From IMG/VR virus record IMGVR_UViG_3300010885_043740, positions 1 through 38,733 of that record: DNA of 38,733 bases; one strand, given 5' to 3'. The notes under the pieces are model-generated. The model did no database searches and had not been told where the DNA came from. It worked only from the letters and a program-made list of their open reading frames with translations. The stretch is from a virus. The translations under genes were made by a program, and so were the position numbers. Of the stretch, positions 2,975 through 23,373 are shown piece after piece; the stretch's first letter is position 1; each line of letters starts with the position of its first letter.

Positions 2975-4375
2975 TCAGGCGAGGTTGCGAATAGCAACAC
3001 GACGATAATAGCGGTTGCTATTAGGAATAAGACGACCTAGGCCTTGAGTTAGTCCTTCGGAGAAAGGATTAGCTACCATTCCATAACGACTCTTGAAGCC
3101 AATTCTAGGTTGAAAACTTTTTGGATCAACAGCACGAACCATTTGAAGGGGTACATAAGGACAGTAGAAAATACCCGCGTCCATAGGTGAAGCACCCTTA
3201 TAACCAACAACATAATAATGGGTGTTGCTGGTGTTAGCAGCATAGGCATCAATATATACTTTAAATTTACCCATCAGAGTACCAGCAAAGAGATTGCCGG
3301 TATCATCAACACTAAGATTGGAATTAAGAGAAGGAGTATAATCAAGTACACCAGCCATAGTTAGCGCAGAGGCTACGTCAGCGGAGCACATGATAATATT
3401 ACCCTTTCCGCGACGAGTACGCTGACCGACAGCGTTGGCATCACGTTCCATTTGGAAAATAAGACCCTTAAACTTCTCTACAGACCAACGGCCGTTGGAG
3501 TCAATATCAAGGTCAAATACACCAGGAGTAGCAACGTTATTTACAGCACCTTGTTCGGCCACTCTATAAATGGTACGAATAATCTCACGGTTGATCTCAG
3601 CGAGAATCTCAGTGGAAAGAATATTCGCAAGCTCAGCTTCAGCAGAGAGGTTGTGAATAGCACGAAGATCCTGCATCATCTCTAGGCTGTACTCACCAGC
3701 TAGAGCACGGCTCTGAGCCTGTACAGTGACTTTCTCAATAGTGAAAGCCATCTCATTGAACTGGTTGGTATCACCATTACCGAGATTCTCAGAATCACCA
3801 GTCTCCATACCTTGACCAATGTTATAGGTCTCAGTAGATGTTTCAGTTGGGTTCAGTAGGCCAGGATTGCTACCACGCTGAGTAGTACTACCGAAACCAG
3901 CGGCAGTTGAACCGAAACCAGCAAGGCTAAGGCTGTTATTCTGACCGGAGAAAGCGGTATTGACTTCATCGAAGAAAGTCTCAGGACCAGTTTGATTGGT
4001 ATAACGACTACGCATAGCGAAGATAAGACCAGCGGGGCCAGTCATCGGCTGCACACCAGCTAGATCATAAGCCACAAGATTAGGCATAGAGCGCCGAATC
4101 AGGCTGATTAGAATTGGGTCAAAACCGGCTACAGGGCCAGCAGCAGAGGCACTACCAGTGAAACCACCAGATGTACCAGCAGCATTAGCTGAGTTGGTAG
4201 GGGCTTCCATTAGTAGTTGGCCGGATTCAAATGCGGCGGAATCACGGAGGAAAACTTCTTGGTTTTCTAGAAGCTGTGCAGTAACTTCACGACGATGACG
4301 ATCTTTGATTGGTTCTAGTTGATCGGAATTCAGAAGTGGTGCCCACTTTCGTTGCAGATTTTCTTGTACGAACAT
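2975..4375 (-). CDS. 23: Major capsid protein gp23
   Basis: This is the 466-residue precursor of the hexameric head subunit (HK97 fold; T4 gp23 is 521). Diagnostic stretches are the N-terminal RKWAPLL, PNLVAYDLAGVQPMTGPAGL, FAMRSRYTNQTG and the C-terminal GRLIPNSNRYYRR. The N-terminal propeptide probably ends at LLME/A (Glu57-Ala58), which fits the L-x-E rule of the gp21 protease, so mature protein would begin at Ala58. The cleavage site is inferred. The start is preceded by AAGAGGT as ribosome site. The gap to gp22 is only 46 bases and shows no clear late promoter, so expression may depend on transcripts from the gp22 promoter. An intrinsic terminator follows. Confidence 0.97.
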   Translation of the reverse strand: MFVQENLQRKWAPLLNSDQLEPIKDRHRREVTAQLLENQEVFLRDSAAFESGQLLMEAPTNSANAAGTSGGFTGSASAAGPVAGFDPILISLIRRSMPNLVAYDLAGVQPMTGPAGLIFAMRSRYTNQTGPETFFDEVNTAFSGQNNSLSLAGFGSTAAGFGSTTQRGSNPGLLNPTETSTETYNIGQGMETGDSENLGNGDTNQFNEMAFTIEKVTVQAQSRALAGEYSLEMMQDLRAIHNLSAEAELANILSTEILAEINREIIRTIYRVAEQGAVNNVATPGVFDLDIDSNGRWSVEKFKGLIFQMERDANAVGQRTRRGKGNIIMCSADVASALTMAGVLDYTPSLNSNLSVDDTGNLFAGTLMGKFKVYIDAYAANTSNTHYYVVGYKGASPMDAGIFYCPYVPLQMVRAVDPKSFQPRIGFKSRYGMVANPFSEGLTQGLGRLIPNSNRYYRRVAIRNLA

Positions 4376-4421
4376 TTACTTGTACCTCTTAGGTGTGTTT
4401 GGGTTTGATTGAATACTAAAA

Positions 4422-5636
4422 TCAGGTGTTAACTCCAATAGCTCTTAAATAAGTCTCCATTGCGGGAGAATAATCTGGCTCCTCATGGTATTCAGTACCT
4501 TCGGAAAGAGTTTCTAATTGAGCATTTTGGACTCTTGATTTTTGTGGAAAATAAGATTCCCGAAGAGTCTCTAATTTCTCACGATATGTGGCTTCACTTT
4601 CAAACTCAACACTTTCTGCAAGCGAAGCGAGCTTTTCTTGCTGGGTCATCGCTAGACCATCAGCAACTTCATCAAAAATCCTATCAGCCACAGACTCAGA
4701 AAGTTTCTGAGTTAGCTGCATATTCTTTTCAATTTGCTCGTTGAGTTTATCTTCCATTTCATCTAGTTTTTCTACCATATTCTCTACGATGTCATACTTC
4801 TCCTCAGGGAGATTTACATGATGATCTTCAAAAAGTTCAAACAGTTTGCCTAGGAAAGACTCGGCAATCTGTTCTTTAATGCCATACTGAACGGCGAGTT
4901 TATTGTCGCTGATCCATTCGTCGGCGACGTACTCAAGATAAGCATCCACACGCTCTTGAAGTTCAGAAGCAATAACTTCTACTTCCTCAGCAAGGGCAGC
5001 CTCATATTGCTCTTCAAGATGTTCACGAATTTCACTAACCTTGGACCGTACAGCGGCCTCATAAATTACACGAGTTTTTTCTTTAAACTCTTCAGAAAGA
5101 CCTTCGCCTTCTACGATGGCATCAACGTCTTCTTCAAAGTTATACTCTTCTTCAGCAGACTCTTTCATGGACTCTTCTTCGTCCTCTTCTTCTTTTTCTG
5201 ACTTTTTGGATTTCTTCTTAGGAGCTTCTTCTTCTTCGTCCTCATCCTCGTCCTCGTCATCCTCTTCTTCTTTCTCTTCCTGAAGCTCTTCCTCGTCTTC
5301 CTCTTCGTCTTCTAGGTCTTCTAGATCTTCATCATCTTCATCATAATCTTCTTTCATTTTCTGCATTGGTTCAGCAGGTTTAGCGTTACGAGTTACAGCG
5401 TCAGAAACTCGCTTTAGTCTGGCAGCAGGATCGGCGATTTTATTAGAATCATCATCTGGCTTGGAATTCTCTGGAGTAGGACCGCCTAGATCTTCCCAGT
5501 TGCCAGTTTGGCCATCAGGAATACCAGTGGTCAGCTTTTTCATAGGTTCACCAGCCTTAGCACCGCGATTCACTTGAGTCACTGAATGTGCATTTTTAGC
5601 TTCCATTTCACTAAGATTTTGTCTAGTACGAGGCAT
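4422..5636 (-). CDS. 22: Prohead core scaffold protein gp22
   Basis: The 404-residue scaffold protein forms the assembly core inside the prohead and is degraded by gp21 before packaging. Residues about 175-330 match the family (ADEWISDNKLAVQYGIKEQI, then LFEDHHVNLPEEKYDIV), followed by long coiled-coil heptads. The N-terminal half is unusual: residues 97-167 are an extreme Asp/Glu run with a short Lys patch (KKKSKKSEK). This accounts for much of the extra length over T4 gp22 (269 residues). A GGAG ribosome site lies just before the ATG. Gene order 21-22-23 is the same as in T4. Confidence 0.93.
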   Translation of the reverse strand: MPRTRQNLSEMEAKNAHSVTQVNRGAKAGEPMKKLTTGIPDGQTGNWEDLGGPTPENSKPDDDSNKIADPAARLKRVSDAVTRNAKPAEPMQKMKEDYDEDDEDLEDLEDEEEDEEELQEEKEEEDDEDEDEDEEEEAPKKKSKKSEKEEEDEEESMKESAEEEYNFEEDVDAIVEGEGLSEEFKEKTRVIYEAAVRSKVSEIREHLEEQYEAALAEEVEVIASELQERVDAYLEYVADEWISDNKLAVQYGIKEQIAESFLGKLFELFEDHHVNLPEEKYDIVENMVEKLDEMEDKLNEQIEKNMQLTQKLSESVADRIFDEVADGLAMTQQEKLASLAESVEFESEATYREKLETLRESYFPQKSRVQNAQLETLSEGTEYHEEPDYSPAMETYLRAIGVNT

Positions 5637-9072: not shown

Positions 9073-11199
9073 TTAGATTTCACCACCTTTCGGTGCTTCT
9101 ACAGCAGATGTATCTACTTTAGGTTCAATGGGTACTTTACCCATATCACTATTAATATTATTTCCGGCTGTAACTACTGGCTGACCCGTTTTAGGATCAA
9201 TTTCTGGCTTGTCTTTTGGATCTGGAATGATACCATTTTCAATTTCTTTTTTGATTTGTGCATCCTCTTCCACTATCTCTTGATCAGTCTGTCTCAGAAT
9301 TTTACGACGAACATAATCTTGTGAAAAATATACACCGATATAAGGTTCGGCGATTTGAGCAGTATTTAATCTTTCCGATAGAAGTTCAGACTCTTTTAGT
9401 TCTGCGAAGTGATTATCGTATAGGAAGTCAAATTGAATATGTTCATTCATCACCTTCCAATCTTCAGGAGTGATAATATTTTTTAGAATAAGTTGCGTCT
9501 TAAGAAGATCTGTAAAGAGAGTTGAAAATCTTTTTCTTAGACGACCTACGAATTTTGAGAATTTAACTTCGTCTCTTAGAATCTCGGAAGATCTACCTAG
9601 ATTAAATCCTGAGTCTCCACCGATTCTGGATTCGGGAACATTTAGGTCCTTATAGAGTTTTCTTTGGAAGTAGTTAATATCAGTTAATTCTCCTAAATTA
9701 CTGTTTTTTGTATAAATTCCACAAGAAAGTGCAAAAGTATGATAATCGTGGAGAATTTCATTATCGTCAATTGTTAGGGTTCCAACTTCAATTTCTTCCG
9801 TTAGATGTTCAATAGTATCAATAAATATAAAACTTTCTGTCCCATTTTTGTGTGAACTTATTAGCATAGTATCAACTTCTAAGTCCTTGGCCTCAACAAA
9901 ACCAACATCATAAATCGGAAACTTGTGATCATAAGTACAAACAACACGCTCTCCATTATCCAATGTAATCTTCATTACCTTTGCACTCTTTTGAGTCACA
10001 CCAGCCCAAGAAATTAATCCTGGAGAAAATTCACCTGTAGTGGGGTGACAAGAATAAGTCCATAAATTTTTGCCTTCTTTAAGTTCATTTTCAATATCAG
10101 AAATAGAAAGGTCTCTTCCATCCAAGAGGGAAACCTTTGTATCCATAGCTAAACAGCCCCCAGGAACAATATCCAACTGAGTACCGCGACCACCTTCTCT
10201 TCGGGGAAGGAAGAAGTCATCCATAATACTCATAAACTTCTTATCGTCTCTAATAGTACCATCTGCCGTTGAATATGCAGAACGATTACGATAACGAAGC
10301 ATAACATCACGGAGATATTGTTCAGCTTTTTGCTTTGGTAGATTACCAACATCAATATAAAACACCCGCCTTTCGGAACTACGAAGAAGTCTGTAAATTA
10401 CTAGACTATCCTCAATCATTCTTAATTGGTTGAGAGTCTTAGATGCTTTGTTCAGATATGATAATGTGGTTCCTTTATTTCTGTCTACAAGACCGCTAGT
10501 ACAATAAACAACAGAATCTCTAGCGAACTTAACTGTTTTTTCCTGTCCTGCATTCATGTCCTTTGGTGTTCCAACAGGATATGAAGTAGTAGGGGTGTAG
10601 ATGAAATACTCTTCCAGCTTGGGGAATTTGTAATTCATCGGATCAGAATCACCGTATTCTTTAACGACTGCCTTATCGTTTTTTACTTTAAGTTCTTGTC
10701 GCACATAACGCATTTTAAGAGCGTCAATATATCTTAGGTCTAGAATGCCATCTTCAGGCTTTTTAATATCAATAACCTTATGATAATAAAGTCTACCGTC
10801 AACAAACCAGTTACGATAGATTTCGTGAGCTTTCTTATCAAAGTCTAACAGCTCTAGAATATATTTAAATTCTTTACGGATAGTATTTTTAAGATCTTCA
10901 CCAACGTTTAAATTTGATAGTTCAATTTGAATAGGGCTATCGTTAGTGTCTGATACAATTGCCTCATTTACAATATCTTCAATAGCGGAATCAACTTCTG
11001 GATGAAGCGACATTTCACGGTATCGTCTGATAAGTTCAAATTCTGTTCTATAGATACCCTCAATGTCAATATATGAACCAAAAAATCCACTAGTTAGATA
11101 AAAATCAGACCCGTCCTCATCAGAAGGAGGAACGGGTGATAGTGTACTAGGGGATAATTCTAAATCATCATCAAAAGAAAAACCAAACAAACGAGCCAT
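9073..11199 (-). CDS. 20: Portal vertex protein gp20, interrupted by a mini-intein
   Basis: The 708-residue precursor is the dodecameric portal through which DNA enters and leaves the head, and it initiates prohead assembly. Extein features include YREMSLHPEVDSAIEDIVNEA at about 60-80 (given here as YREMSLHPEVDS), the segment RNWFVDGRLYYHKV at 129-142, LRYRNRSAY at 301-309, and the conserved PGG/SNLGELTDI joint. Between Gly348 and Ser500 lies an intein of 151 residues. Removal gives 557 residues, close to T4 gp20 (524). The gene is followed by gp67-like and gp68-position genes as in T4 and preceded by gp19. A late promoter overlaps the end of gp19. The C-terminus is proline and acidic residue rich. 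Confidence 0.96.
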   Translation of the reverse strand: MARLFGFSFDDDLELSPSTLSPVPPSDEDGSDFYLTSGFFGSYIDIEGIYRTEFELIRRYREMSLHPEVDSAIEDIVNEAIVSDTNDSPIQIELSNLNVGEDLKNTIRKEFKYILELLDFDKKAHEIYRNWFVDGRLYYHKVIDIKKPEDGILDLRYIDALKMRYVRQELKVKNDKAVVKEYGDSDPMNYKFPKLEEYFIYTPTTSYPVGTPKDMNAGQEKTVKFARDSVVYCTSGLVDRNKGTTLSYLNKASKTLNQLRMIEDSLVIYRLLRSSERRVFYIDVGNLPKQKAEQYLRDVMLRYRNRSAYSTADGTIRDDKKFMSIMDDFFLPRREGGRGTQLDIVPGGCLAMDTKVSLLDGRDLSISDIENELKEGKNLWTYSCHPTTGEFSPGLISWAGVTQKSAKVMKITLDNGERVVCTYDHKFPIYDVGFVEAKDLEVDTMLISSHKNGTESFIFIDTIEHLTEEIEVGTLTIDDNEILHDYHTFALSCGIYTKNSNLGELTDINYFQRKLYKDLNVPESRIGGDSGFNLGRSSEILRDEVKFSKFVGRLRKRFSTLFTDLLKTQLILKNIITPEDWKVMNEHIQFDFLYDNHFAELKESELLSERLNTAQIAEPYIGVYFSQDYVRRKILRQTDQEIVEEDAQIKKEIENGIIPDPKDKPEIDPKTGQPVVTAGNNINSDMGKVPIEPKVDTSAVEAPKGGEI
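9703..10155 (-). other. Mini-intein in the portal protein (151 aa, no endonuclease)
   Basis: Portal residues 349-499 form the intein. Block A starts with Cys349 (CLAMDTKVSLLDG), block B is ERVVCTYDHKF with Thr422 and His425 (the T-x-x-H motif), block F is VGTLTIDDNE and HDYHTFAL, and the end is GIYTKN with Asn499 followed by Ser500. The penultimate residue is Lys rather than His. There is no LAGLIDADG or HNH motif and no room for one. Excision restores PGG-SNLGEL, a strongly conserved portal segment. It cannot home on its own, so persistence suggests either vertical inheritance or loss of an earlier endonuclease. Confidence 0.93.
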
Positions 11200-14134: not shown

Positions 14135-17100
14135 TTAGTAATAATTAAAAAGATTTAATAAAGTATTCATCTCTTCATCTTCAACGACTTGCCACATGTC
14201 TCCTGTTTTCTCATCAACAATAACATCTTCCGAGAAAGGAGCAAATCCAAATGGTAATACATCCTCTTCCTCTTTATCTTTTTTCTCAGCCAGAAGCCTT
14301 TGTCTGAGATCAATATCAATAATATCTTTGAAGTATTGATTGGTTGTTAACCATGAGAACATAACCAGACACATAACAAGATCGTCATTTCTACCAGATT
14401 CCGCTTCAAAGGTTGATCCTTTTTGTACGAACGTTGTTAATTCTGAAAAGATATCATAATCGTTTATTGTTAGAATATTTTCTTCTATTAGAGTTTTTAA
14501 TTTGAGGCACCCAACTTTTTTGGTGTTTTTCTGCATTTTAACACCGAGTTCATACTTACCGGAGAAATTCTGACCGACAAATTGGCCACTTCTAGACTTC
14601 GTTGAACATAACAGCATATTTGGGTACTCGTCATCAATTAAATCTTTAGCAACCTCTCTACCTATTTCGTTTACTTCACACAATAAGAAACTTTGATTAT
14701 ATTGTAATGCAACTTTTTTTACTATGTCCGAATATAATTCAGGTTTAATCTCATTATCTCTATATTTTGCGACTACAGGATAAGGCGCTTTTATTATGTC
14801 AATAATAACAAAAGCACTATAATCTTTCTCAACGCCTTGGGCTGTATCTACAAGGGTTACATACACATGACCAGCTTTTGGTTCTTCATAAACATCTAGA
14901 TTGTTTATTCTTCGTATTGGTGTATTTGTTACAATATTACTTAACTTTGAACCTGAAATAAGAGTTTCTGAAGATCCTAAGAATTCGGTATTAAATTCCT
15001 GATCAAAGTCTTTTTGGCTCGTGTTGGCGATTTGTTGTCGTTTCCATTCTTCGTCTCTTCCAGGAACGTCGGACCAATGAATTTCAAATGGATGATAATC
15101 ATTTGTACCACTTTTCGCTTCAATCCACAACTTATAAAAGTGGTTCATCCCCTTAGGGGTTTGATGACCTAAGAAGTTATTGTAAAGTACGGAGTGACAC
15201 CATTTATCATCGGGGCAATCTGGTAGAGAAACATCAAATACTTCAGCTTCAGATTTTTCTATATTTTTTATAGGAACCCAAATAAGATCTTCTTGAACAT
15301 TATCATCAAGAAAAGTTCTTATGATGTCATTAGATACTTCATAAAAAGATTCTTTAAGATTTAATAATTGTTTTCTAGAAAAGGTCGTAAATGGTCTTTT
15401 TTTTCTTTTTGGAATTAATTTAAGATTTTCAACTTCTGTTGTAATATTTTCTAATATAAATTTAGCAGATCCTGGAACAACATCAGTACGATGTCCAATT
15501 CTGTTAGAATTTTGTATTAAACTATAACGATCATTTTTTCTTTTAAGATTAAACCCTATTTCCTCAAAATATTTGTGAGCGTAATTTCCGGTGATTTCTA
15601 TAGAGTAACATTGAGAAATAACTTTTACTTTTTTTGAGGGTTTTGTTTTTGCGCTATACACTGAGCCTATTATACCTAAATTCGCCAATAAAAGCTGAAC
15701 TTGATTGATCAACTCTTTTGACGTTGAAGTATATGTTACTTTTCCTTTATTAGTAATACAACCATCACCATCAAACATACCTCTTAATAAAGAAGCAATG
15801 TTCTCTTTAGACCAAGATAAAACTTTATCAGGTATAACTTTAAATTTAGCTTTTTTCTTAATATCAAAACCCAAAGTCTTTAAAAATTCTGTTAGATGAT
15901 AAGAATTAATAATATAATGAAAATCATCTACTTTTTTATATTTTATCTCTAATTTATCTAAACTTTCTGAAATATTATCACCACAAGTTATTACGATCTG
16001 TCCACCAATAATATTGCCCGATTTTTTAGAGATTATATCTCTAGCATATCCTTCTGCAATGTATAAACCGATAAAATATGCTATATCTTTGTTTATACAA
16101 TTACAAGAAAATGTGTTTTTATTTTTATTCTTTTTAGGTAAAAATCCAACATAATTATTATTACCAAATATTTGTTGATTATACTTAACCGCAATATAAT
16201 CACCAATTTTTAAATCTCTACTTTTTACATACCCATAAGATCCATTTGAATAAGCCCACAACTTATGATCTTCTGAACATTCTAAACTGTTATACCTAGT
16301 AGTAATAATGTTTGTTTGAGATTTTTTATTATTTACTATTATGTTACTACTGTAAAATTTATTATTACCTCTTACTGTATATTCTGGAACAAAATATGCA
16401 CCTTCTTTATCCTTCTGTATCAAATTTTCTATCTTTCTATATCCTTTCGGTGTTAAAAGATAAGTATCTTTTGTTACACAAGAAACAACGATAATCTTGG
16501 AATTGTTACCAGATGAAATAGTCGGATATACAGATTGCATGAAATTATTAGCTACCTGCTCTGGTACGAACGCATATTCGTCCAACATCAAAAGCGAATA
16601 TGTTCCACCGCGAACTGCTGATGCCGATGTTGAGGCTGCAATAACTTTGGATCCATTTTCTAATTCCATGGATGTCTTATTGCAAGACTTAACACCCTGT
16701 TGCATCCATTTTGGTAGATTCTCGTAAGCAGTCTGTAATCTTGATAAAATTTCTTTAGCCGTTTGTGCTTTGTTTGCTAGAATAGCAATTGAAGTGTGCT
16801 CATCAAAAAGCATATTGTGGATGAGGAACGCAACTGTTGTCGTTGAATTGTGTGTAGGTATAAAAGTTCTTCCACATAAAAATAGGTGATCTTCACTATC
16901 AACTGATAAACAAGCTACAGGTACACTATTAATTTTTTCTATTTTTTGTATGTAAATTCTTTTATCTTGAGATCTAGTCTTTCTATTAACATTAACATTA
17001 TTGCATTTTCTTTGTAAGTTAAAAACTTGTTCGGTTGTTGTAAAAGATACAGTATAATATATTTGTCCTTTTAATCTTTTACTTCGTATTCTTGACTTGA

Positions 17101-18097
17101 TTCCTAAGGAAGAAAGCAATTCCACAAATTGAAGAATTAACGAATAATTTTTTTGATAAAATTCAAAAGATCTACTATTTTTTTTAACAGAACCATCAGT
17201 ATCCATTAAACCCCTTAATAAATTTAACCTATTTTCATAAGATGATCTTAGATATATCTGAGGTATATGTTTATTTCCTAATAAATTATTATTTTTTAAT
17301 TTTTTAAATAAATTTAAACATTTAAATTTAATACAATTTCCTTCTTCTCTTTCGTATTCTACATCTATTTTTTGTTTATAATAATAAAAATCATTTTTAT
17401 GAGCTATTATTCTTCCGCTATCTGAATATCCGTCACCCAACCATAATCCAAGTAAATATGGATCAATCGGTAATACATCATGTATGAAAGTATTCAGAGG
17501 TTTTGAATGTTCAATATAATAAGATCCAGCAAAACCAAAACCTTTTTTATTAGCTTTCTTTAAATTATAAGCATCAAAAATTTCTTTGGAAGAAATTATT
17601 TTTTTTTTCGAATTCCAATATGCGCTATTAACTTCCCATAAATGCTCAGAGTCTGCTACTATGCTATCACCATTGTCAAAGTATAATTTATAACAATCAT
17701 GATTATACATAATATCAGTTTTTTTTATAACACTCACAGAATTACCATTTGGATCTAAAATACTATCTCCGATCTTAATATCACCCATAGTTGTCCATCC
17801 GTTGGGTGTGGGTATGGGTGTATCTAGAGAAAGAGCTTTCCCACTCTGCCTAGGGAGTTTACATATGTTGAATCTTTTGGTGTAAAAATTCTCCAGCATC
17901 TCTTCCTGAAAAGAATAAGGTTTGAAATTAACCAATCCTTCATTAAGAGTTACGATTTTAATATAATTCTTCGCAAAATAAATTGGGTCGTCAGAACACT
18001 TAGCAAGCTCTAGAAGTTGGTCTGGGGCCAGTTCAACTTCTATATTAGCTCTTTTAAGTAACGGATTACCGAGATAGTGTTCTTCCCTTATTGGCAT
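14135..18097 (-). CDS. 17: Large terminase gp17 (packaging ATPase-nuclease) with two inteins
   Basis: The 1320-residue precursor would give about 550 residues after removal of two inteins (T4 gp17: 610). It pumps DNA into the prohead and cuts the concatemer. The ATPase domain has Walker A LPRQSGK/STT (residues 81-87 then 418-420), split by intein 1; Walker B LLMLDE at 502-507; and the coupling motif VVS/TP (539 then 980), split by intein 2. The nuclease domain follows: VDTAQG with Asp1084, LLCEVNEIG with Glu1141, and GRNDDLVM with Asp1238/Asp1239. Both inteins therefore interrupt ATP-hydrolysis motifs, and the unspliced protein should be inactive. It follows the multi-DUF gene and gp16 and precedes gp18. 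Confidence 0.97.
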   Translation of the reverse strand: MPIREEHYLGNPLLKRANIEVELAPDQLLELAKCSDDPIYFAKNYIKIVTLNEGLVNFKPYSFQEEMLENFYTKRFNICKLPRQSGKALSLDTPIPTPNGWTTMGDIKIGDSILDPNGNSVSVIKKTDIMYNHDCYKLYFDNGDSIVADSEHLWEVNSAYWNSKKKIISSKEIFDAYNLKKANKKGFGFAGSYYIEHSKPLNTFIHDVLPIDPYLLGLWLGDGYSDSGRIIAHKNDFYYYKQKIDVEYEREEGNCIKFKCLNLFKKLKNNNLLGNKHIPQIYLRSSYENRLNLLRGLMDTDGSVKKNSRSFEFYQKNYSLILQFVELLSSLGIKSRIRSKRLKGQIYYTVSFTTTEQVFNLQRKCNNVNVNRKTRSQDKRIYIQKIEKINSVPVACLSVDSEDHLFLCGRTFIPTHNSTTTVAFLIHNMLFDEHTSIAILANKAQTAKEILSRLQTAYENLPKWMQQGVKSCNKTSMELENGSKVIAASTSASAVRGGTYSLLMLDEYAFVPEQVANNFMQSVYPTISSGNNSKIIVVSCVTKDTYLLTPKGYRKIENLIQKDKEGAYFVPEYTVRGNNKFYSSNIIVNNKKSQTNIITTRYNSLECSEDHKLWAYSNGSYGYVKSRDLKIGDYIAVKYNQQIFGNNNYVGFLPKKNKNKNTFSCNCINKDIAYFIGLYIAEGYARDIISKKSGNIIGGQIVITCGDNISESLDKLEIKYKKVDDFHYIINSYHLTEFLKTLGFDIKKKAKFKVIPDKVLSWSKENIASLLRGMFDGDGCITNKGKVTYTSTSKELINQVQLLLANLGIIGSVYSAKTKPSKKVKVISQCYSIEITGNYAHKYFEEIGFNLKRKNDRYSLIQNSNRIGHRTDVVPGSAKFILENITTEVENLKLIPKRKKRPFTTFSRKQLLNLKESFYEVSNDIIRTFLDDNVQEDLIWVPIKNIEKSEAEVFDVSLPDCPDDKWCHSVLYNNFLGHQTPKGMNHFYKLWIEAKSGTNDYHPFEIHWSDVPGRDEEWKRQQIANTSQKDFDQEFNTEFLGSSETLISGSKLSNIVTNTPIRRINNLDVYEEPKAGHVYVTLVDTAQGVEKDYSAFVIIDIIKAPYPVVAKYRDNEIKPELYSDIVKKVALQYNQSFLLCEVNEIGREVAKDLIDDEYPNMLLCSTKSRSGQFVGQNFSGKYELGVKMQKNTKKVGCLKLKTLIEENILTINDYDIFSELTTFVQKGSTFEAESGRNDDLVMCLVMFSWLTTNQYFKDIIDIDLRQRLLAEKKDKEEEDVLPFGFAPFSEDVIVDEKTGDMWQVVEDEEMNTLLNLFNYY
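15161..16480 (-). mobile_element. Terminase intein 2: LAGLIDADG intein ending in Gln
   Basis: Residues 540-979 of gp17 (440 aa) form a full intein inserted in the ATPase coupling motif (VVS/TPKG). It starts at Cys540 (CVTKDTYLLTPKG), block B is ECSEDHKLWA with His611, and it ends NNFLGHQ with Gln979 followed by Thr980. A terminal Gln in place of Asn is uncommon but known in active inteins. Two LAGLIDADG motifs are present, YFIGLYIAEGYA with Glu682 and LLRGMFDGDGCI with Asp778, so the endonuclease active-site acids are intact. A long region follows before block F (AEVFDVSLPD). The DNA is visibly more AT-rich than the flanking exteins. Confidence 0.94.
16847..17836 (-). mobile_element. Terminase intein 1: class 3-like LAGLIDADG intein in Walker A
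   Basis: Residues 88-417 of gp17 (330 aa) form an intein inserted in Walker A (RQSGK/STT). It begins with Ala88, not Cys or Ser (ALSLDTPIPTPNGW). Trp101, Cys396 in block F (VPVACLSVDSEDH) and Thr415 in the end PTHN match the Trp-Cys-Thr signature of class 3 inteins, in which the block F Cys makes the first attack. The extein +1 residue is Ser418. Two LAGLIDADG motifs, LLGLWLGDGYSD with Asp222 and LLRGLMDTDGSV with Asp301, suggest an intact homing endonuclease. The DNA contains long A/T runs compared with the flanking gene. Confidence 0.94.
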
Positions 18098-18100
18098 AAA

Positions 18101-19696
18101 TTAGTTACAATTCCAGCGTCTTAGCGCCTTATTGATTCTTGAATCTGGATCTCTAGCGGTTTTTGTGCTAGTTAACTTAGACTTCATCCCAGACATCCGC
18201 CGACAAAAGCTAGCTCTACGGCTTTTCCTTTTACCTGTGGGATTCTTTTCGGTAACAGCGGTCTGTAGTTTAGAACCGGGATTATCTCTCCGATAAGCCT
18301 TTACTGCCTTTTGGCTTAGACCATCAACCTTATCTTTGCGGTTGATTTTCTGCCAGGCTTCCTCTTCATTAACTTGAACCAGTGGCATTTTTGGATTCAG
18401 TTCGCTCACTCTAAAGCTAATGACTTTGGAGCCAGGATATACTTTTTCAACAGCGGCGAAGATCTCTAGTCTTTTAGGAATTCTTACTTGAGGGAAGAAC
18501 ATCTGAGTGACAATAATTTTGTTTCTCCAGTTAAGCATAATATTCATTAATTGACCACTTTGCGATTGAATTCTTACACCTTCTGGTAGATACTCCTCAG
18601 ACTTTGTTCCCCAACTATTAGAGCCAACTTTACGACATTTTGAAAGAGCCAAACTTCCATATGCACTAGGCCAGACATCGTAGCGAGCCTTTACTTTATG
18701 ATAACAAGCATCTTTTTTTGATTTTTCTTTTTTGGCTTCGTAGATTACTTCTTCGGTTTTAACATAAGTTGGTTTAGTTGCTCCACTTTTTTCCGGTTGG
18801 CTTGGATCCTTTCTATTCTTTCTTTTAAAAGCTCTTTCCTCTTCCTTATCTGACATATTTCTTGCCATCTTAGAGCTACCACATTTTGGTGTGGATTTCT
18901 GTCCTGGTTGTCTGGCACAAGGAGCGCCTTTATAAGGACCACCTAATTGAACCCAACCCGGAACCTTTTTTCCTGTTTTTGGGTCGGTTCCACTTGATTT
19001 ACTGATCCAATCTCTAAGACTATTATCCCCAGATTTTGTATCTTCTTTTATAGGTGATTTCTCTACTTTAGAAAGTTTGGAATAATAATCCGGTCTTTCT
19101 GCTAGATGCTGAAGTGCGATGGATTCGGCCTCACTTTTATCTGTGGTGTGTTCCATCTCAACTTTTATTCCACGCTTCAAAGCTTTATCAATTCTTTCTG
19201 GAGTTGTTTTGTGCTTTTTTGCGATTTCATTGACACTCTTATGGGGCTTCATGTCACAGTCACAACCCATCTCAGCGAGAATTCTTTCTGTTAGAGTGGA
19301 TTCTTTAAGTTTTGGTAGATCAACACCTACTTTCTTTTTAACTAATTCTTGATTAGGAAGTTGTTTCCTCTGAGAATCTGACATTCTTCTAAGTTTATCA
19401 GAACCAACTGCGGGTCTTGATTCTTTATGCTTCTCTGGGTTAATACTAAAACTTGATGCTTCATCTAACTCTTCATCCGAACCCAGATACTCAGCAGCAG
19501 TATCAATATAATCAGCACATTTTGTGATTTTTGACTGAACCCACGCCGGAAGTTGTTGATCTGATTTGTTTACTATCTTTCTTAGTTTTGAAACTGATCT
19601 CTCAATACTATCCAGCTCAAGCCGAGCCATATAACCTTCATCGTCTTTCTTTTTACCAGACTGAATTTCTTTATGGTCTTCAGAAAATATTGCCAT
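18101..19696 (-). CDS. Multi-domain protein of phage DUF modules (531 aa), between gp16 and gp17
   Basis: The protein is a string of small basic domains. Residues 22-75 are a helical region. Residues 152-213 (NEIAKKHKTTPERID, GIKVEMEHT, ALQHLAERPDYY) resemble DUF5661. Residues 226-305 (WISKSSGTDPKTGKKVPGW, LGGPYKGAPCARQPGQ) resemble DUF5872. Residues 328-363 (DACYHKVKARYD, WPSAYGSLALSKCRKVG) form another phage module. Residues 375-450 are unrecognised. Residues 458-531 (GLSQKAVKAYRRDNPGSK, RRWNC) resemble DUF6321. Several Cys residues sit at conserved points. Its place between the terminase genes suggests a DNA- or virion-related role, but function is unknown. The domain names are from memory and were not checked by search. 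Confidence 0.8.
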   Translation of the reverse strand: MAIFSEDHKEIQSGKKKDDEGYMARLELDSIERSVSKLRKIVNKSDQQLPAWVQSKITKCADYIDTAAEYLGSDEELDEASSFSINPEKHKESRPAVGSDKLRRMSDSQRKQLPNQELVKKKVGVDLPKLKESTLTERILAEMGCDCDMKPHKSVNEIAKKHKTTPERIDKALKRGIKVEMEHTTDKSEAESIALQHLAERPDYYSKLSKVEKSPIKEDTKSGDNSLRDWISKSSGTDPKTGKKVPGWVQLGGPYKGAPCARQPGQKSTPKCGSSKMARNMSDKEEERAFKRKNRKDPSQPEKSGATKPTYVKTEEVIYEAKKEKSKKDACYHKVKARYDVWPSAYGSLALSKCRKVGSNSWGTKSEEYLPEGVRIQSQSGQLMNIMLNWRNKIIVTQMFFPQVRIPKRLEIFAAVEKVYPGSKVISFRVSELNPKMPLVQVNEEEAWQKINRKDKVDGLSQKAVKAYRRDNPGSKLQTAVTEKNPTGKRKSRRASFCRRMSGMKSKLTSTKTARDPDSRINKALRRWNCN

Positions 19697-19713
19697 TTGT
19701 ATAAAATTAATAA

Positions 19714-20142
19714 TTATTTATTATTCATTTGAGCTTTTAGCATTTTAATAGCTTCTGCGGTAGTTCCAATAAAGACTGCGTTATTATTTGTTACGTTATT
19801 AGTGGTCATCTTTTCAGTCTCCATATCTTTTAACTTAACATGAATATCAATAATTTTCTCTGCGGAATCAACAGTTTGTTTAATAAGTTGAGCGACGACT
19901 TCGTATGCCCTCGCCTGATCTGTTTCTTGTGCCAGTTCAAGAGCACCATCTAGAGCCTCTTGGCTTTTAGAAATGGTTGCATTAAGAACACCAAAAACAT
20001 AATCAATGTCTTTGTCAAGTCTTGAAATTTCAGGATTAACAACAACCTCTACTGGAGATTCTTTTACAATAGAAGTTTCTTCGGGTGTGGATTCAATACC
20101 AAAAGTGGCGTCTAGTTCTTTAAATTTTTTCTGAGTGGCCAT
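19714..20142 (-). CDS. 16: Small terminase gp16
   Basis: The 142-residue protein (T4 gp16: 164) recognises DNA and stimulates the ATPase and nuclease of gp17. A charged N-terminus is followed by a long helical hairpin (DKDIDYVFGVLNATISKSQE, then AQLIKQTVDSAEKIIDIHVK), the coiled-coil core of the family. The C-terminal tail NNAVFIGTTAEAIKMLK matches the T4 pattern of N-A-x-V-F-x-G followed by a short helix. The start overlaps the gp15 stop (TAATG). It is separated from gp17 by the 531-aa gene, unlike T4 where 16 and 17 adjoin. No HNH or intein is seen. Confidence 0.9.
   Translation of the reverse strand: MATQKKFKELDATFGIESTPEETSIVKESPVEVVVNPEISRLDKDIDYVFGVLNATISKSQEALDGALELAQETDQARAYEVVAQLIKQTVDSAEKIIDIHVKLKDMETEKMTTNNVTNNNAVFIGTTAEAIKMLKAQMNNK
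19715..19721 (-). promoter_or_regulatory. Late promoter core ATAAATA before the 531-aa gene
   Basis: The minus strand reads ATAAATA at the end of gp16, overlapping its stop region, about 19 bases before the next ATG. The position is close for a late promoter, so the call is tentative. Confidence 0.4.
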
Positions 20143-21146: not shown

Positions 21147-22549
21147 TATATTCTCCCAAAGATGTTATATTCCACATCATCAATAACTTTAGCAGCCTCA
21201 ATCTGAATATCGTTATTTTGAACAAAGGGATTTATGGAGACTCCAATCTGTTGATAGTCAGTAACACTCATAGTTGTGATTCCTGACTGTATTGTATATT
21301 GTGCGCCGGATTCTGCCCCGGTTATAACTTCCCCAGCGACAAAAGATCCAGTCATGTTACCGACTTGAAGGGTATTCGTCGGTTTATCCCATTGCTTCAC
21401 TCTAGCACTATTACCAGTAATATTTCCACTTACAATTTCATTATAATTGAATGTACCGCTGGCACTACTTGATGGATTGCCCACAATAATTTCTGGTACG
21501 GCAGTATAACCTATACCACCTCTCACTATTCTTATTTGGGTTAAAGCTCCATTTTGAATAACACCTCTTAAGATAGCTGTAGTGGAAGCAATACCAATAA
21601 CTGTTATTGTTGGCTCTGCGGTATATCCTGAACCAGGATTTGTTATTGATGTTATACCGAGAACACCATCTGCAATAGTTGCCTCTGCAACGGCTCCAAC
21701 TCCACCACCACCACCGTAAAATGCTACTGAAGGAGGAACAGTATAACCAAAACCCGGATTAGATATTTCTACTCCTTGGACTCTGAATTTAGATTCATCT
21801 GGTTCACAAAGGTCCACAATACCTCCGATCATGGTTGCGATACCAGTAGCGGTTATATTTGAAGAAGCTGAAAATTCAACCGTTGGGGCTCCAGTATATC
21901 CTTCACCACGATTTTTTACAATAACACTTGTTACACCACCATTAACAATTGTACCCGTTAATGTTGCTGTTATTCCAATACCGATTAATTGATAAATTTC
22001 AGTATAGATTTCATTTTTAACAGTCTCATCAATAAAGGAGTATCCAGTATCAATAATTTCATCTTGATATCTGAAAAGTTCACATCTTAGCCCATAAACA
22101 TAATTCTTTTGGAGTTGATAAAATGGTGTCTCGTGGTCAACATATTTTATTTCAAACAATCTATCGCCGAGTGGAAACCAGATAAGATCACCTTCTTTTG
22201 GTCGTGAAGGTAATTCAATATCAGGAATATTCTGGATAAGTGGTGCGATATAATTACTAAAACGTTCCTTTGAAATGATGAGATTCAAGTCTAGTTCGGG
22301 CTTGATACCAAATTTACTTAAAAGAGTTCCAGCACCTTCATATCCTTCGTAAGTGTCAACATAGGCTTCTAAAGGAAATGCTGATGTAAATTGAGATTCA
22401 ATAACCTCTCTTATGACCTTTCTTTTTGTCACATAGAGTCTAGGGAGATAATAAACGTCTATGCCGTGCATTTGAATGCACTCGTTCATTAAGTCCTGAA
22501 GAAGACCTTGTTCAGAGTTAGAGCCTTGTAAAAAGAAAGGATTTAACAT
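21146..22549 (-). CDS. 14: Neck protein gp14 with inserted GYT-repeat region
   Basis: Residues 1-165 match T4 gp14 (256 aa): NECIQMHGIDVYYLPRLYV, AYVDTYEGYEGA, KEGDLIWFPLGDRLFEI and the segment PFYQLQKN. The protein makes the neck ring that joins head and tail together with gp13 and gp15. Residues about 200-355 contain four copies of a beta repeat with the core G-x-GYT-x-x-P (GYT at 217, 268, 308 and 347), followed by a further beta-rich stretch, before the C-terminus (EAAKVIDDVEYNIF). This makes it nearly twice as long as T4 gp14. The stop overlaps the gp15 start. Confidence 0.94.
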   Translation of the reverse strand: MLNPFFLQGSNSEQGLLQDLMNECIQMHGIDVYYLPRLYVTKRKVIREVIESQFTSAFPLEAYVDTYEGYEGAGTLLSKFGIKPELDLNLIISKERFSNYIAPLIQNIPDIELPSRPKEGDLIWFPLGDRLFEIKYVDHETPFYQLQKNYVYGLRCELFRYQDEIIDTGYSFIDETVKNEIYTEIYQLIGIGITATLTGTIVNGGVTSVIVKNRGEGYTGAPTVEFSASSNITATGIATMIGGIVDLCEPDESKFRVQGVEISNPGFGYTVPPSVAFYGGGGGVGAVAEATIADGVLGITSITNPGSGYTAEPTITVIGIASTTAILRGVIQNGALTQIRIVRGGIGYTAVPEIIVGNPSSSASGTFNYNEIVSGNITGNSARVKQWDKPTNTLQVGNMTGSFVAGEVITGAESGAQYTIQSGITTMSVTDYQQIGVSINPFVQNNDIQIEAAKVIDDVEYNIFGRI

Positions 22550-22554
22550 TTAAA

Positions 22555-23373
22555 TTAACCAATAAGATCTAGGGGCGGAAGTTCATAAGTGTTACTCATT
22601 TCCTCTCTTATAATATCCAGTTCTCTCTGAGCATCATCATAAATTTCTCTACCGTTTAGTTCAACTCCACCAGGGAGTTTAACACTGCGGAATTTTAATA
22701 GGTTTGAACCCCACTGTCTTTTTATAAGAGCTGTAGTATATCTCTTTAGAAAAGAATCGTTCCAGACTTTGGTTGATTCCGCTGGATCCAAGGCCCTGTA
22801 GCACTCAATCAACAGATAAGAACCGACAGACATTGTACTCCAGTCAACATCAATATAAAGCTTCCCTTCTCTTTTATTGAATCTAATAGGTTTTTCTGTT
22901 GATAAAATCCAATCAATATCTTCTAGATATCGTTTAACCATAGTATAGGATAACAGTTCCGTTGAACCCCAGAAGTATAAATCGTTTAGAAACAACTGAT
23001 ACTTAAGGCTAAACATATTGCTTGAAAGAGTGTTTGTTCCTTCAAACTTGAAAATCTTGGTTACACCAAAAATATAATCTGGAATTTGGATATAGTTTCT
23101 ATCTTGTTGGAATGTATAATTTTTTCCCGCACTTGTGGTAGTTGTTATTCCGGGATTGATTCTACCTTTCGCACGATCTATGTCTTCTTGGGTAATTTTA
23201 TACTTTAGGTAAGTGAGTTCAACCCCGTCAAAATGGCGCTCTTGAAAATACTGAATCGCATCATCTACCCTATCTTCTATTTGTTCTTGGGCGATATTTA
23301 TCTCAAGAACAGGAGCACCAAGAGCCCGTAAGCAATATTGAATAAATTGTTCTCTACTTGCGGGTTGGGCCAT
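22555..23373 (-). CDS. 13: Neck protein gp13
   Basis: The 272-residue neck protein (T4 gp13: 309) forms part of the head completion ring. Signatures include FIQYCLRALGAPVLEINI, EQIEDRVDDAIQYFQERHFD at about 26-45, the strand segment RNYIQIPDYIFGVTKIFKF, then TALIKRQWGSNLLKF and PGGVELNGREIYDDAQREL toward the C-terminus. The ATG shares one base with the stop of the small upstream ORF (TAATG). It is followed after a short gap by gp14, in T4 order 13-14-15. Confidence 0.95.
   Translation of the reverse strand: MAQPASREQFIQYCLRALGAPVLEINIAQEQIEDRVDDAIQYFQERHFDGVELTYLKYKITQEDIDRAKGRINPGITTTTSAGKNYTFQQDRNYIQIPDYIFGVTKIFKFEGTNTLSSNMFSLKYQLFLNDLYFWGSTELLSYTMVKRYLEDIDWILSTEKPIRFNKREGKLYIDVDWSTMSVGSYLLIECYRALDPAESTKVWNDSFLKRYTTALIKRQWGSNLLKFRSVKLPGGVELNGREIYDDAQRELDIIREEMSNTYELPPLDLIG

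Follow-up and report, generated by a model that had tools for sequence, protein, structure and literature searches.

Two predicted inteins in the large terminase and a third in the portal protein of a T4-like virus from a metagenome

Introduction

Inteins in the genes of phage packaging motors have been described in several settings, for which we draw on parts of the respective papers. Cyanophage Mic1 carries two inteins in its large terminase subunit (TerL) (PMC7156551), as does a crAss-like phage (OBYQ01000140; PMC7886860). In mycobacteriophages, intein TerL1-a between Lys and Thr of the P-loop, intein TerL6-f in the C-motif and portal inteins have been published, and five terminase or terminase-like inteins were found to splice and two to cut empty TerL DNA (PMC5050341). 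Terminase inteins are also on record for the T4-like phage Maynard (PMC3868846), for RaK2 and K64-1 (PMC5259590) and, together with an intron, for Campylobacter phage IBB_35. Outside phages, DnaB of Mycobacterium smegmatis holds a class 3 intein in its P-loop (DnaBi1) and a class 1 intein with an endonuclease in another motif (DnaBi2) (PMC6195587); class 3 inteins are marked by a Trp-Cys-Thr motif in blocks B, F and G (PMC7664689, PMC5050341). Here we analyse one virus contig from a metagenome, 38,733 bases long (IMG/VR record IMGVR_UViG_3300010885_043740; the whole stretch is called the window), in which the T4-like large terminase gene, gp17, is interrupted by two putative inteins and the portal gene, gp20, by a third. 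We consider it highly probable that two inteins, unrelated to each other and mobile independently, entered gp17, that another entered gp20, and that splicing restores these parts of the motor.

Results

The gp17 gene lies on the reverse strand of the window (positions 14135–18097) in a frame that is uninterrupted over 1320 amino acids (aa), and Pfam places LAGLIDADG_3, Hom_end and Intein_splicing matches inside two inserts, between pieces of Terminase_6N and Terminase_6C. Alignment with T4 gp17 delimits an N-extein (aa 1–87, 17837–18097) ending in the Walker A sequence PRQSGK, a middle extein (aa 418–539, 16481–16846) running from Walker B (LMLDE) through IIVVS of the coupling motif, and a C-extein (aa 980–1320, 14138–15160; also supported by Pfam) with the remaining ATPase and the RNase H-like nuclease. 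The joined exteins, 550 aa in all, align with T4 gp17 (3ezk) at E 2.9e-89 with zero gaps at both joints. Walker A, the DE pair of Walker B, the coupling motif and three nuclease acids, whose roles we take to be those known from the T4 literature, are all present, and spliced gp17 is predicted to be an intact T4-type ATPase-nuclease.

Natural empty sites in relatives, denoted here by locus numbers, confirm the gp17 joints: both sites are empty in L094, the second in L013 and the first in L175. The last of these, a single contig also entered as L095, has site 1 empty while carrying intein 2 (67% identical) and the portal intein. The original prediction, made from the letters of the window, had placed the two inteins after Lys87 and Ser539, expected an ATPase-nuclease of about 550 residues with its catalytic acids, and proposed the insert-free alignment with T4 gp17 as a check; precise boundaries, empty sites and alignment all agree with it. 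At the level of sequence, the family, NCBIfam and solved-structure matches detailed below exclude a chance origin of the inserts.

Intein 1 (aa 88–417, 330 aa, positions 16847–17836, reverse strand) splits Lys from Ser in the P-loop, with junctions PRQSGK/ALSLDT...FIPTHN/STTT (slashes mark splice points). Its splicing halves match the M. smegmatis DnaB intein 6bs8, titled a class 3 intein, at E 1.1e-27, with a further match to 6rix, and the intervening endonuclease is recognised by Pfam (LAGLIDADG_3, Hom_end) and has the motifs LLGLWLGDG and LLRGLMDTDG. The key residues are Ala1, D62, H65, W67, C309, T328, H329 and N330; residues 48, 62, 65 and 67 align with DnaBi1, and the same alignment identifies W67, C309 and T328 as the Trp-Cys-Thr triad. 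We compared 89 copies, namely the window, 79 of the 80 loci fetched with intein 1 and nine others, including a mini form from a neighbouring site (L093). Trp67, Cys309, Thr328 and the terminal Asn are each present in 89/89, and the two endonuclease acids are Asp in 88/89 and 86/89, the mini form being without an endonuclease domain. Position 1 lacks Cys or Ser in the window, where it is Ala, and reads Ala in 77, Pro in 7 and Ser in 5 of the copies; the five Ser1 relatives depart from the rule that class 3 inteins have no nucleophile at position 1, yet they also carry Cys309. Its predicted active site places intein 1 in class 3, as a relative of the M. smegmatis DnaB intein found in the P-loop.

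Cys321 (FLCG) was considered as the class 3 nucleophile and ruled out by the DnaBi1/6bs8 alignment, which points to Cys309 (VACLSVD). The seven copies beginning with Pro are L181, L085, L177, L174, L084, L010 and L093; a proline at the N-terminal junction would make an unusual splicing substrate.

Class 1 inteins have Cys or Ser at position 1, a block B His, a block F Asp, a C-terminal Asn or Gln, and Cys, Ser or Thr at +1. Intein 2 (aa 540–979, 440 aa, positions 15161–16480, reverse strand) lies within the coupling motif, with junctions IIVVS/CVTKDT...FLGHQ/TPKG, and shows this pattern in full (Cys1, S69xxH72, D416, Q440, +1 Thr); C1, H72, D416 and Q440 are invariant over 10 aligned copies, and the endonuclease motifs are YFIGLYIAEG and LLRGMFDGDG. 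The NCBIfam intein_Nterm match starts exactly at aa 540 of gp17 (29.7 bits, cut-off 24.5). An AlphaFold model of intein 2 (predicted local distance difference test score, pLDDT, 84; predicted template modelling score, pTM, 0.88) has the TliVMA intein 7qss as its top Foldseek match (E 2.7e-21), with 2cw7, PI-PfuI and PI-SceI also among the best, and in this model the Hint fold of intein 2 is interrupted by a LAGLIDADG domain with two motifs.

Fifteen copies of intein 2 were compared: those of the window, L095/L175 (one contig), L089–L092 (95–100% identical in the pairs compared), L084/L085 (identical) and others. Cys1 is found in 15/15, and the C-terminal junction reads HQ/T in 13, YQ/T in one (L196) and HN/T in one (Perkons), this last copy sitting in Walker A. 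L185 has degenerate LAGLIDADG motifs and has kept both splicing ends, and therefore supports selection on splicing rather than on homing. In the phage collection, in a search that may omit records very near the window, 65 records match intein 2 at E 1e-5; among the 40 listed, none is by name a T4-like cyanophage, with three 'uncultured' and one 'Dulem' entry that could not be judged.

The gp20 precursor (708 aa, positions 9073–11199, reverse strand) has two separate stretches that match Pfam Portal_T4 (E 7.3e-170), between which lies a predicted class 1 mini-intein of 151 aa (aa 349–499, positions 9703–10155) with junctions VPGG/CLAMDTK...YTKN/SNLGEL. The original prediction, which counted two splicing events, missed this third intein and was in that respect incomplete. 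NCBIfam intein_Nterm (TIGR01445) begins at portal aa 349 (31.9 bits, cut-off 24.5), the class 1 residues are present (Cys1, TxxH, C-terminal Asn, +1 Ser), the top Foldseek matches of a weak model are inteins and Hint domains, and a Pfam search finds no endonuclease family match in the 151 aa. The portal of Synechococcus phage B23 is uninterrupted at this site. In the phage collection, four records match at E 0.01, none across 80% of the intein's length, and a search of viral contigs yielded 27 loci. With the window (entered twice) and L095 these give 30 rows, in which one contig also appears twice; Cys1, the terminal Asn and the +1 Ser are found in 30/30. Twenty rows measure 146–153 aa and ten 346–463 aa, the long forms occupying the same site in relatives L189–L198. 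Since long and short rows both occur, the mini form may be a long form that has lost its insert.

Some portals are interrupted differently. A 1332-aa portal frame in L194 (1160–5155), listed alongside L195, apparently holds three inteins of 156, 254 and 346 aa; L052 (14829–17792) has a portal intein of about 419 aa at a different site (VIYRL/CLVGDT...IIVHN/SRAPERR); and in L057 the start of a portal intein lies close to extein residue 312.

The closest comparison for gp17 is L013, which carries intein 1 (97.9% aa identity) without intein 2. When the window is joined at the intein 2 flanks, the two are 97.8% identical over 8436 aligned bases with 19 gap columns, and the gp17 segments and intein 1 are 97.9–100% identical as protein. 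Within the 2058 nucleotides (nt) of shared gp17 there are 39 mismatches, 14 of which fall within 40 nt on either side of the intein 2 site; in 20000 permutations with codon positions preserved, 14 mismatches were never reached there or in any 80-nt window. This pile-up fits the footprint expected if intein 2 recently homed into the lineage of the window and short stretches of the flanks were converted. From their catalytic motifs and this conversion-type footprint, we infer that inteins 1 and 2 are putative homing elements. A recent exchange between L175 and the window was considered and rejected, as their middle exteins are 97% identical in protein and only 80% in DNA, which indicates constraint rather than conversion.

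Several observations weigh against the reading of three invading inteins that splice and, in gp17, home. If L013 had precisely lost intein 2 by recombining with an empty allele, the footprint would look the same as after a gain in the lineage of the window. No donor of intein 2 is found among the collected copies, the closest being 67% identical. Window and L013 also diverge, to a degree well beyond their background level, in two further patches (L013 about 1701–2100 and 4701–5000; in window coordinates about 22385–22784 and 19485–19784), which suggests that recombination took place close to gp13/gp14 and to the presumed small terminase; because of these patches, patchy exchange is not limited to the inteins. 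Pfam Intein_splicing scores lie around or under the cut-off of 35.8 bits, at 36.4 for intein 2 in the whole protein and 35.4 for intein 2 alone, and at 30.7 and 34.3 for the portal intein. The AlphaFold model of the portal intein is weak (mean pLDDT 66.7, residues 135–151 below 50), too weak for its C-terminal block to be visible. Lastly, the sets of 89, 15 and 30 copies for intein 1, intein 2 and the portal intein include close relatives, and the copies are not independent.

These near- or sub-threshold scores, along with C-terminal blocks that are not ideal (the Gln end of intein 2, the penultimate Lys of the portal intein), could also speak for decayed inteins that no longer splice, in a gene that is dead or a protein that works with its inserts in place. 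However, relatives keep the same ends (HQ/T in 13/15, portal N/S in 30/30 rows), the frame is open throughout, and intein 1 stands between the Lys and Ser of the P-loop. Moreover, the three gp17 extein segments show low non-synonymous divergence (dN 0–0.010) against synonymous divergence (dS 0.038–0.129) from L013, and we regard decay as extremely improbable. For intein 1 itself, dN is 0.010 and dS 0.021, changes too few to judge alone.

Among the 80 loci fetched with intein 1, eight also contain intein 2, 69 have an empty second site and three could not be judged. The eight represent about four lineages, L041, L057, L084/L085 and L089–L092. An assembly chimera, with inteins mis-joined to gp17, might be suspected of a window that is a single metagenomic contig; yet its frame is open and the same pair sits at the same codons in these eight loci, which are separate IMG/VR records, leaving that explanation with almost no probability. 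Further combinations occur in which intein 2 is without intein 1 (L009), intein 2 accompanies the portal intein (L175, L185) or intein 1 does (L174, L177, L181), and this mixture indicates that each element is gained and lost independently of the others. In a sample selected solely by the nuclease domain (best 80 matches), intein 1 is present in 1 of 64 judgeable contigs and intein 2 in 0 of 77, figures that are a rough guide only because the sample favours contigs with a whole nuclease piece.

This distribution bears on whether the inteins have been co-opted as switches, with conditional class 3 splicing, for example under redox control, holding back the ATPase and, with the portal intein, motor assembly. 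In DnaBi1, to which intein 1 is related, oxidative stress gives rise to an inhibitory disulfide between Cys48 and the catalytic Cys118 (PMC6195587); Cys48 is found at the same position in intein 1 of the window and kept in 87 of the 89 copies, the one hint of regulation in these sequences, and the authors of the Mic1 study propose packaging control by TerL inteins (PMC7156551). Against this, mutations of Cys48 abolish DnaBi1 splicing (PMC6195587), so that its conservation may be merely structural; intein state differs between phages as near-identical as the window and L013; and the inteins are rare or absent in the nuclease-chosen sample. Presence/absence polymorphism and the homing-type footprint favour tolerated mobile elements over an evolved packaging switch, which we judge improbable.

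An Intein_splicing search of ten relatives' records returned matches in 8/10, above the cut-off in 3/10. Several fall in frames other than gp17 and gp20, and thus packaging genes are not the sole intein targets. The search misses class 3 inteins, as the records of B23 and L064 came up blank though both carry intein 1.

Walker A harbours a second intein in some relatives, a class 3-like mini-intein of 147–149 aa at PRQ/CGK, three extein residues upstream of intein 1. It is present in L089 (8998–9438), L091, L092, L090 (cut by the contig end) and L093 (8545–8991), and the L089-type copies also begin with Pro. In L089, L091 and L092 it joins inteins 1 and 2, so that a single gp17 holds three inteins; in L093 the mini form is the only one. 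The extra 147 aa in L089, L091 and L092 were also considered as nested within intein 1, a placement that we rejected in favour of this separate element.

In another group of relatives, gp17 is broken near extein residue 264 (L056, about 4103–4570; L017, L022, L047, L052 and L084; and L009, by its first frame). The first frame ends in a short intein-like start and the second opens with some 110 aa that end in SHN/C(E/S)FLG, an arrangement that looks like an atypically split intein, with intein matches below threshold. We presume that it is related to the AceL TerL split intein, which has been published. The name of that element follows a passage of PMC7891396. In L017, a 319-aa frame with matches to a helix-turn-helix domain and a DUF559-like nuclease lies between the gp17 pieces. 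A group I intron at this break was rejected, as Rfam is blank at its gathering threshold in four loci and the frames resemble a split intein.

By family search, the window is a T4-like structural module with a uvsW-like helicase, gp23, gp22, gp20, sheath, gp17, gp15, neck proteins and a baseplate protein resembling gp8. The tail tube and the small terminase were placed by position alone, after the gene order of phage B23. The closest gp17 proteins in the phage collection (40 rows listed of 2751 records) are from cyanophages and marine viruses at 54–58% identity. Photo_RC (psbA-type) matches occur in five of ten relatives' records searched, four above the cut-off, and in neither the record of the close relative L175 nor that of B23; because of this uneven occurrence, we call the window virus a likely cyanophage only. 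In the records of L044, L064, L065 and L084 the Photo_RC matches are split into two separate pieces, as if interrupted.

Discussion

The features above suggest how the three elements would behave. All three inteins would be translated in frame with their host proteins. Intein 1 would leave by the class 3 route, in which the internal Cys309 attacks the bond that follows Lys87 of Walker A, with the extein Ser of the P-loop acting as +1 nucleophile. The other two would follow the class 1 route, intein 2 through attack by Cys1, with the coupling-motif Thr as +1 nucleophile and cyclisation of the terminal Gln, and the portal intein through its Cys1, terminal Asn and +1 Ser. P-loop, coupling motif and uninterrupted portal would exist only after excision. 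During co-infection, the LAGLIDADG domains of inteins 1 and 2 would copy the elements into empty alleles, and insertion at invariant ATPase codons would keep the target conserved and make imprecise loss lethal. The sequences themselves show the precise boundaries, the relatives with empty sites, the conserved catalytic residues and the conversion-type footprint at the second site; actual splicing, endonuclease activity, loss of motor function in the precursors and the direction of the recent exchange are matters that we infer.

That an insertion in the P-loop blocks the ATPase is a reasonable expectation, and the same block has been argued for DnaB (PMC6195587). With three inteins across ATPase and portal, the motor should work only after three self-excisions; a dependence of packaging on these three events is, as far as sequence can tell, well founded. 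It is a different and improbable proposition that the motor is serially gated, with a redox-sensitive P-loop intein (Cys48/Cys309), the coupling-motif intein and the portal intein having to leave first, such that splicing times or conditions packaging. Related alleles with both gp17 inteins, with either or with none form a natural series in a motor well studied in T4, allowing one to ask whether active-site inteins are neutral parasites or timing devices, and the portal intein carries this question beyond a single enzyme to the motor as a whole. At the intein 2 site, the conversion-type footprint offers evidence from sequence that environmental phages have recently exchanged an intein.

Published examples bear out the statement of the original prediction that terminase inteins are known. 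Its description of the gp17 pair as unusual needs narrowing, as TerL proteins with two inteins have been published for Mic1 and the crAss-like phage, both sites are known singly, and the pair recurs in 8 of 80 contigs; it is the combination that stands as unusual. Our searches of open-licence PubMed Central (PMC) literature turned up no account of a T4-like gp17 with two inteins, or of a T4-like phage with inteins in both terminase and portal.

Mic1 resembles the window in having two inteins per TerL, of which the large one interrupts the coupling motif at the same position (LLTG/C...N/TPKG; L006). In the parts of that paper used here, unlike in the window, TerL is assigned by its authors to the P22-like headful group and the second intein lies in the nuclease domain, not in Walker A. 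The crAss-like TerL differs, from the portions of its description used here, in its Hint-Hop type inteins, recoded stops and TerL family. Mycobacteriophage inteins occupy the same two ATPase positions and likewise target portals, whereas the sections of PMC5050341 on which we draw describe the sites singly and do not report both in one protein. Intein 1 has P-loop counterparts in the gp17 proteins of Synechococcus phage B23 (MN695335; 67% identical) and of coliphage ECD7 (36% identical), both inserted at its site, and the RaK2 terminase intein shares the site as well; B23 and ECD7 differ from the window in having a single intein and none in the coupling motif. M. smegmatis DnaB, in the published account as far as we cite it, offers a parallel of one ATPase holding a class 3 P-loop intein that uses the P-loop Ser plus a class 1 endonuclease intein, but in the window the host is a phage packaging motor, intein 1 retains an endonuclease and intein 2 interrupts the coupling motif. 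Each kind of element has known examples, and it is the combination of three inteins in one packaging motor that is unusual.

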